Positions 6,953 to 8,806 of a stretch of DNA of 64,000 nt are shown one piece after another. Each line of letters starts with the position of its first letter. The stretch's first letter is position 1. A program made the position numbers and the translations under genes. Under the pieces are notes generated by a model. The model worked only from the letters and a program-made list of their open reading frames with translations. It did not search any database and was not told the DNA's origin. The DNA comes from an uncultured Clostridia bacterium. Its GTDB lineage: Bacteria > Bacillota > Clostridia > Christensenellales > CAG-917. The stretch covers positions 1-64,000 of the forward strand of contig CALVKR010000003.1 in NCBI GenBank assembly GCA_944332995.1, in the 5' to 3' direction.

Positions 6953-8422
6953 TTAAAGCAATATGCAAAGCACGCCGCCCTTTCCTTCGTTGACTATTCT
7001 GCCGAGAGTTTTTTGCATCTTCTCTTTTGCGTCGGCAGGGATAGCGAAAAGTTTATGCTGCAATCCGTCGTTTACAAGACCTCTCAGCGTCTTCCCGAAG
7101 ATGTTTGCGTCCCATATGTCGTCGTTCTGCGGATTGGAAATAAGACTCTTTACAAGGTCCTCCGATTGTTCCTCGCTACCCACTATTGGGCTGACTTCCG
7201 TTTCGACGTCCACTTTTATTATGTGTAGCGACGGCGCTTTTGCGCTGAGTTTAACACCAAACTGTCCGCCCTGTTTTACCATTTCGGGAGTGTCGAGGCT
7301 CATTTCGTCAATGGACGGAACGACTACTCCGTATCCCGTTTCTTCCGCCTGCTTTAAAGCGTCGCACAGTTTTTGCGTTTTGGCTTTCGCCTTGGAAAGC
7401 GTCTTGAGAAGATAGAAAAGGTCGAAATCGTTTTTAACCGATTCGTTACATTCGCTCGAAAGAACGTCGTAGAAAAGCCCTTCTTTTACCGACAGCGTTA
7501 TTTCCACTCTGCCCTGTCCTGCGTCTAAAATTATGTTTGACGGAGGGTCTAAATAGTTTAAACCGTCGAACGCCTCGTCAAAGTTTAAATAGTCCTTCAT
7601 CTTTTTTGCGCTCTCTGCGACTTTCGTGACGGCGCCTATGGCTTCCTTTACGATATCGCTGCCCACGCTCAGCGCCTGTATCCACTTGGGCGCAACGGCG
7701 TCAATCTGTTTTATGGGGAACTCCAAAAGCACCGTTTCGAGTATGCCTGCCATATCCTGTTCGCTCATATTGAGCACGTCGGCGACTACGACGGGGACGG
7801 CGTATTTTTCCTCGAGCACTCCCCTTATCTTCTGAGCTTCGTTGCTTTGCGGTTTTTTGCTGTTGAGCAACACTATAAACGGTTTGCCGAGCGATTTCAA
7901 TTCGCCCACGACTCTTTCTTCTGCCGCAATATAATTCGTCCTGGGTATATCGGCTATCGTTCCGTCCGTCGTTACGAGCACAGCTATCGTCGAATGGTCT
8001 CGGATAACTTTTTCCGTTCCTATCTCGGCGGCTTTCTCGAACGGCATTTCTTTTTCTGACCACGGCGTCCTGACCATTCTCTCCTTGCCCTCCGATTTAT
8101 GCCCTTCCGCACCCTCGACGAGGTAGCCCACGCAGTCAATCATTCTGACGTTCGCCTGCATGTTTTCGCTTATCGTAACTTTTACCGCCTCGTTTGGCAC
8201 GAATCTCGGTTGAGTCGTCATGATAGTCTTTCCGTCCGCCGACTGCGGAAGCTCGTCAACCGCTCTTTGGCGTTCGTTGACGTCCTCTATGTTGTCGAGC
8301 ACCGACTGCATAAAGCGTTTGATAAACGTAGACTTGCCCGTTCGGACGGGTCCGACTACACCGACGTATATATCTCCGCCCGTCCTCTTTGCAATATCCT
8401 CCAATAAGTTAAATTTGTCCAT
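6953..8422 (-). CDS. spoIVA: Stage IV sporulation protein A (spore coat basement ATPase)
   Basis: A 489-aa SpoIVA, full length for the family. The N-terminal TRAFAC-type ATPase domain carries Walker A GPVRTGKSTF near residue 24, and the sequence runs through QSADGKTIMTTQPRFVPNEA and RMIDCVGYLVEGAEGHKSEG, all diagnostic. It ends GGVLCILL, the short hydrophobic end used for membrane or SpoVM contact in Bacillus. In Bacillus it polymerises on the outer forespore membrane and anchors the spore coat. SD AGGAGG is 6 nt before the ATG. It appears monocistronic. Its presence indicates an endospore-former or recent descendant of one. Confidence 0.97.
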   Translation of the reverse strand: MDKFNLLEDIAKRTGGDIYVGVVGPVRTGKSTFIKRFMQSVLDNIEDVNERQRAVDELPQSADGKTIMTTQPRFVPNEAVKVTISENMQANVRMIDCVGYLVEGAEGHKSEGKERMVRTPWSEKEMPFEKAAEIGTEKVIRDHSTIAVLVTTDGTIADIPRTNYIAAEERVVGELKSLGKPFIVLLNSKKPQSNEAQKIRGVLEEKYAVPVVVADVLNMSEQDMAGILETVLLEFPIKQIDAVAPKWIQALSVGSDIVKEAIGAVTKVAESAKKMKDYLNFDEAFDGLNYLDPPSNIILDAGQGRVEITLSVKEGLFYDVLSSECNESVKNDFDLFYLLKTLSKAKAKTQKLCDALKQAEETGYGVVVPSIDEMSLDTPEMVKQGGQFGVKLSAKAPSLHIIKVDVETEVSPIVGSEEQSEDLVKSLISNPQNDDIWDANIFGKTLRGLVNDGLQHKLFAIPADAKEKMQKTLGRIVNEGKGGVLCILL

Positions 8423-8448
8423 AATTGCCCTCCTGCTACTTACGCTTA

Positions 8449-8477
8449 AATATATTCGCCTTAGACGGCAATATTCC
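8449..8477 (-). promoter_or_regulatory. Possible sigma-E-type promoter of spoIVA
   Basis: In the 70 bp between the small-RNA terminator and the spoIVA start, the minus strand holds GGAATATT and, 13 bp later, GAATATATT. This resembles sigma-E elements (-35 KMATATT, -10 CATACAHT), the factor controlling spoIVA in Bacillus. No sigma-A promoter is visible in the same space. Confidence 0.4.
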
Positions 8478-8485
8478 TGAAAAAC

Positions 8486-8512
8486 AAAAAAAACAAGCCC
8501 GAAGGCTTGTTT
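8486..8512 (-). terminator. Terminator of the candidate small RNA
   Basis: Stem AAACAAGCC / GGCTTGTTT with a TTCG loop on the minus strand, followed by eight T. It sits 64 bp upstream of the spoIVA start, so it ends a transcript that begins upstream of spoIVA. Confidence 0.85.
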
Positions 8513-8771
8513 AATTTTTCTTTTGTATCTTTATGGTTTATCCTTGGTAACTTGTCGTTTAATCTTTAGTGCAATATAATCTTTTGTATAAAAATCTTTG
8601 GTGCTTTAACGATTGTCTTATGAATTTCTTTTGTTTATCCGATTTTTATCTTTTGAATTTCTTTTGTATTTAAGGCCGTAACTTTTGATTTAAAGTATAT
8701 TTAAATCTTAATCTTTCGTAAAAGTTCTACGATTTTTTTACACCAAGGAAAAAGCGGAAATCCCTTAGCTT
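8486..8771 (-). ncRNA. Candidate small RNA of about 285 nt with its own promoter and terminator
   Basis: A sigma-A promoter at 8778-8806 and a strong terminator at 8486-8512 bracket this region on the minus strand, and no open frame with a ribosome binding site lies between. Three hairpins occupy the 5' half of the RNA: CTAAGG/CCTTGG, TCGTA/TACGA, and an 8-bp perfect GATTTAAA/TTTAAATC with a 5-nt loop (8687-8707). The 3' half is unstructured and A-rich, with recurring AAAGAT and ACAAAAGA words, including a 14-bp direct repeat at 8621-8634 and 8654-8667. I do not recognise the family; it does not fold like 6S, SRP, tmRNA or RNase P. It could alternatively be an attenuated leader of spoIVA. Confidence 0.5.
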
Positions 8772-8777
8772 GATAAA

Positions 8778-8806
8778 ATGTTAGCACGGCGACCAGCGAA
8801 TGTCAA
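8778..8806 (-). promoter_or_regulatory. Sigma-A promoter of the candidate small RNA
   Basis: Minus strand: perfect -35 TTGACA, 17-bp spacer, -10 TAACAT. The ldh promoter has the same hexamers and spacing. The predicted start is near 8771. Confidence 0.75.

Follow-up and report, generated by a model that had tools for sequence, protein, structure and literature searches.

The DNA directly upstream of spoIVA in the window analysed here, a single stretch of 64,000 nucleotides, raises the question of whether it encodes an RNA of its own and, if so, which part of that RNA would be the working part and what would recognise it. On the minus strand, positions 8806–8484 comprise a promoter, a predicted non-coding RNA of ~286 nt and a strong terminator. 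The features of the locus are listed below; G000 denotes the gut Clostridia genome studied and G001 the only other genome of its genus.

Probable transcription unit upstream of spoIVA

8778–8806, minus strand: promoter TTGACA-17-TAACAT with a TG ahead of the second hexamer (10 of 12 consensus matches)
8484–8771, minus strand: predicted small RNA of ~286 nt with 45% A (promoter and terminator taken to mark its 5' and 3' ends)
8716–8732, minus strand: AU-rich hairpin TCGTAGAACTTTTACGA (predicted fold; not conserved in G001)
8712–8719, minus strand: motif copy 1, ACGAAAGA (sequence)
8687–8707, minus strand: AU-rich hairpin GATTTAAATATACTTTAAATC (predicted fold; not conserved in G001)
8660–8667, minus strand: motif copy 2, ACAAAAGA (sequence)
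8649–8656, minus strand: motif variant TCAAAAGA (sequence)
8627–8634, minus strand: motif copy 3, ACAAAAGA (sequence)
8595–8602, minus strand: motif copy 4, ACCAAAGA (sequence; copy 5 follows after 7 nt, the spacing favoured in other arrays)
8580–8587, minus strand: motif copy 5, ACAAAAGA (sequence)
8563–8570, minus strand: motif copy 6, ACTAAAGA (sequence)
8541–8548, minus strand: variant ACCAAGGA, which may also pair with UCCUUGGU at 8749–8742 (predicted fold)
8519–8526, minus strand: motif copy 7, ACAAAAGA (sequence)
8481–8512, minus strand: intrinsic terminator with a 9-bp stem, TTCG loop and U-rich tail (sequence scan)
8448–8477, minus strand: sigma-E-type promoter of spoIVA, GGAATATT ... 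GAATATATTT, 3' of the terminator (alignment with the upstream regions of family members)
6953–8422, minus strand: spoIVA, a separate transcription unit (Pfam PF09547, PF20438 and PF20439)

Both the promoter and the terminator claimed in the preliminary description are present, and an ORF check of the locus agreed with it that the RNA strand holds no plausible open reading frame between the two. The terminator stem, AAACAAGCC-TTCG-GGCTTGTTT, occupies 8512–8491 and is followed by TTTTTGTTTT; the terminator region ends ~60 bp from the spoIVA ATG (8422). The earlier impression that no known RNA family fits has held in a covariance-model search of the small RNA against Rfam, in which no family reached the gathering cut-off. 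The best sub-threshold matches were to implausible eukaryotic or viral families, none of them credible.

The sigma-E-like elements noted previously proved to be real, as the family has a conserved -35/-10 pair 5' of spoIVA that both G000 and G001 match. Given a promoter, a terminator and a sigma-E-type promoter that would belong to spoIVA itself, the RNA is most simply read as an independent transcription unit, and we consider it very probable that it is one, as had been proposed. It is highly improbable that the RNA is instead a leader of spoIVA, or the interval a chance A-rich spacer. The RNA does lie directly 5' of spoIVA and on the same strand, but the predicted terminator and the putative sigma-E-type promoter intervene before the gene. 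A spoIVA leader or riboswitch was rejected on the same ground, these two predicted elements standing between the RNA and the gene with which it would be co-transcribed. The divergent neighbouring gene is weakly YtxC-like (18.4 bits, under the cut-off of 33.1).

The fold predicted for the RNA is slightly better than those of shuffled sequences (z -1.77), with 11 of 200 shuffles equally good. The 5' hairpins that had been described do appear in it, but the fold is not clearly beyond that of the shuffles and, judged by eye, the hairpins are missing from G001. They are weak and not a conserved feature.

The repeat word and its occurrence in related genomes

The repeated element is the 8-letter word ACNAAAGA, found in seven copies in the RNA, where 5000 dinucleotide shuffles gave a mean of 0.13 and a maximum of 2. 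CNAAAGA occurs eight times (shuffle mean 0.33), ACAAAAGA four times (0.06) and AAAGAT six times (0.48), and for each of these none of the 5000 dinucleotide shuffles was as high, which speaks against a chance spacer. The same is true of the retention of the array in the second genome of the genus, where ACNAAAGA is present ten times, together with a terminator, directly 5' of spoIVA; the spacers between the copies have diverged between the two genomes. The claim of A-rich repeat words has therefore been borne out and, with the arrays found across Clostridia, much extended, and the words are supported as what appears to be the functional part of the RNA. On comparison with relatives, the repeats are kept 5' of spoIVA in G001 and the hairpins are not. 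The spoIVA location is common to G000 and G001 only, and in the family's other genera no array was found at spoIVA. In G001, the contig begins just 5' of the array with a gene fragment (L007 1–210) that by eye resembles the end of an archaeal-type TYW1, with no Pfam match; the contig may be chimeric at this point, so that where the G001 RNA starts is uncertain.

In the 464 kb of G000 sampled, four or more CNAAAGA words within 200 nt were found at two places, the spoIVA-adjacent RNA and the 3' region of nrdR, and six permuted words gave one intergenic cluster altogether in the same 464 kb. With these two clusters alone in the 464 kb, a general trait of all G000 3' UTRs was rejected. The second cluster (contig C2, L111, reverse, 2214–2440) has five copies of ACNAAAGA and seven of CNAAAGA between nrdR and its terminator. 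The gene convergent with it is, by eye, like a sporulation sigma factor. G010 has the same nrdR arrangement with seven copies and, among the listed loci for which a gene end was found, an array 3' of nrdR is confined to these two genomes. Furthermore, both G000 and G001 have a two-copy ACNAAAGA unit adjoining ksgA on the opposite strand (L110 1944–1973; L106, reverse, from 2744), followed by a terminator-like hairpin, and this unit is possibly a second free RNA.

Within this order, the presence of arrays is patchy; the sites include the spoIVA-adjacent RNA, nrdR, parB, galE and others. Of 396 genomes of the order, 13 have the exact three-copy pattern; read backwards, the pattern is found in ~4. 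For the class, the numbers are 30 of 245 genomes, some of the 30 being simple tandem or coding repeats, against six. The forward pattern being the commoner, the order of the letters in the word matters.

Arrays at the head of the dcw operon

When one genome was scanned for each species, at least 119 loci were returned. After removal of regular tandem repeats, at least 76 distinct arrays from all sources were left, of which three are coding, so that at least 73 are non-coding. L453, which had been flagged as coding, is overlapped by an antisense frame only and was kept as non-coding. The array carriers include a culturable strain, Eubacterium plexicaudatum ASF492 (L162). Among the matches listed, the head of the dcw operon holds 48 of the 73 irregularly spaced non-coding arrays, and all 48 are on the sense strand. 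They occupy three positions, namely 5' of mraZ, between mraZ and rsmH, and between rsmH and ftsL; an apparent rsmH match at L096 was set aside because it looks by eye like a different methyltransferase. The dcw arrays often have a 15-nt period and lie in stretches predicted to be less paired. The longest among the matches listed, with 22 copies and two alternating spacer types, is in the rsmH–ftsL spacer of G429 (L453/L474).

The consensus across arrays is (T)AC[A>T,C,G]AAAGA[T/A]. A gap of 7 nt between copies is by far the commonest among the matches listed (56 cases, against five for 6 nt and seven for 8 nt). In 37 of 37 regions, pairing is predicted to be lower for the C and G residues within the motif than for those outside it (means of 0.70 versus 0.42 unpaired); the motif being A-rich accounts in part for this lower predicted pairing. 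The constant orientation at three different dcw positions argues for action in RNA, and on these sequence features we think it probable that the array is a real RNA-level element.

An element acting as DNA, in the form of operator repeats for MraZ or another DNA-binding protein, or of some other chromosomal site, is a very unlikely reading. MraZ is known to bind direct repeats near dcw, and its word in Mollicutes is AAAGTG[T/G] (PMC8475190), so that both kinds of element are direct repeats close to mraZ. However, 25 of the 28 array loci with a recognisable mraZ hold separate AGTGG repeats with 10–11 bp spacing just 5' of that gene, whereas the period of the ACNAAAGA arrays is 15 nt or irregular, and they are always on the sense strand and take three different positions. 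The MraZ boxes are DNA operators of AAGTGG type with a 10-bp period, and the arrays, which differ from the AGTGG boxes in word and period, were not assigned to them. The AGTGG repeats themselves (e.g., L137, L141 and L157) represent MraZ boxes in uncultured Clostridia.

A viral origin was also rejected: of 120 viral contigs showing the triple pattern, no more than a handful carry irregular arrays, almost all of which are situated in open frames of 140–730 codons. In one Lachnospiraceae contig, a Clostridiales-1 RNA (RF01699; L140 2827–2999, 120.5 bits) lies directly 5' of an array. This RNA is multicopy in several Clostridia genomes, in the manner of a dispersed element. Its inclusion in the array element was dismissed as coincidence, as none of 30 other copies precedes ACNAAAGA repeats. 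In the literature searched, we found no description of the ACNAAAGA motif or of repeats between mraZ and rsmH.

In G000, mraZ, rsmH and the gene after them lie end to end, with no array. The mraZ loci examined in other members of the order, which have arrays elsewhere, likewise hold none, G142 having four scattered copies.

Possible mode of action and candidate reader

The array has the appearance of a hitherto undescribed site at which an RNA-binding protein would dock. In the proposed mechanism, the spoIVA locus would give rise to a free-standing small RNA with the ACNAAAGA array, set in largely unpaired, A-rich RNA, as its working part, and the array would be a multivalent platform to which a protein that recognises a specific sequence in single-stranded RNA would bind. 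This platform would, in most Clostridia that have arrays, operate in cis, inside the dcw operon mRNA; in G000 it would be carried on the autonomous RNA beside spoIVA and in the nrdR 3' region. Since the dcw operon of G000 has no array and the platform is on an autonomous RNA, the most likely role for the RNA is that of a decoy acting in trans, as CsrB and CrcZ do. We infer such decoy action from the architecture of the unit and, by analogy with those systems, regard a protein-binding decoy as the best explanation, with a probability of about 0.45. Alternatively, the RNA may have a local action or may be a relic.

The strongest competitor, which we consider unlikely, is that the array is a cis-acting RNA element involved in mRNA stability, processing or attenuation, the copy at spoIVA being relocated or local and not a decoy. 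Such a role would suit the placement of the arrays, given that nearly all dcw arrays among the matches listed come after a stop codon and before the following gene, often ahead of a hairpin, and that the nrdR arrays lie between stop codon and terminator. It would not suit the array at spoIVA, which has its own promoter and terminator, spoIVA having a separate sigma-E-type promoter, so that there would be no mRNA for it to act upon in cis; moreover, G042 has a comparable promoter–array–terminator unit.

The known RNAs closest to a decoy of this kind differ in their motifs. CsrB and RsmZ are sponge RNAs that share with the spoIVA-adjacent RNA a free-standing promoter–array–terminator layout and many short protein-binding motifs. 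The CsrB sites are GGA in hairpin loops, whereas the repeat unit here is ACNAAAGA, predicted to be mostly unpaired, and arrays of it are found inside dcw mRNAs as well; membership of the CsrB/RsmZ group was rejected on this basis. CrcZ and CrcY are decoys for Hfq-Crc in which A-rich repeated motifs titrate an RNA-binding protein. The A-rich repetition is shared, but the motif differs and Hfq is absent from G000. The ToxI-like type III antitoxin RNAs consist of near-identical tandem repeats of ~35–45 nt beside a toxin gene; this class was discarded, the motif here being 8 nt long with variable gaps and the neighbours being spoIVA and the weakly YtxC-like gene.

It was also considered that the RNA might be an Hfq-dependent base-pairing sRNA, its A-rich repeats serving as sites for the distal face of Hfq or pairing with UCUUU-type targets. 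The repeats do resemble Hfq-binding tracts, but Hfq (PF17209) is missing from G000 and from all family members tested, and we hold this reading to be quite improbable. The domain was found in two of the 26 genomes tested, and the controls were detected. An Hfq-dependent sRNA and a CrcZ-type decoy were both rejected for the lack of PF17209 in G000 and the family members. Pairing with UCUUU-type targets, which the preliminary description had suggested, fared no better: a set of 327 translation-initiation regions contains no TCTTTNGT and shows no enrichment of TCTTT. Moreover, any base is tolerated at the third position of the motif, which fits recognition by a protein better than pairing.

As to the protein, KhpA/KhpB (also EloR/Jag) is the leading candidate, put forward tentatively. 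The pair is nearly universal in Firmicutes, and for this reason its presence tests little: at least one protein with the domain (PF13083) was found in 26 of 26 genomes tested, two of them in G000 (frames of 83 and 231 aa). The KH groove accommodates four bases and dimers could read two successive motifs (PMC6403258). On our reading, the halves ACNA and AAGA would suit two such grooves, and it is this that would make KhpA/KhpB the most likely protein. Pneumococcal EloR/KhpA is tied to division control and was proposed to bind 5' UTRs, including that of ftsA (PMC6403258), a link of an RNA-binding pair to cell-division mRNAs that parallels the link of the arrays to dcw. The same paper describes the RNA targets of EloR/KhpA as not yet identified (PMC6403258), and the literature searched gave no RNA motif for KhpA/KhpB. 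A fuller proposal, which we offer as speculation with the odds well against it, is that the ACNAAAGA arrays are KhpA/KhpB recognition sites through which the division operon of Clostridia would be controlled in cis, and that in this lineage they have been moved onto free RNAs, the spoIVA-adjacent one among them, that would titrate the protein, linking division control to sporulation.

A short RNA word repeated up to 22-fold (among the matches listed) on the transcribed strand at the head of dcw across many Clostridia, and present neither in Rfam nor in the literature searched, points to an unrecognised post-transcriptional control of division. Were KhpA/KhpB to read it, the array would supply the missing target sequence for an RNA-binding pair that is among the most widespread in Gram-positive bacteria, and the spoIVA-adjacent RNA, as its free-standing version, would be a natural decoy with which to test the idea. 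In G307 (contig C8, L098), an array follows parB ~6 kb beyond a KhpA/B-domain frame on the same strand; if KhpB reads the array, this arrangement would fit KhpB autoregulation and is suggestive only.
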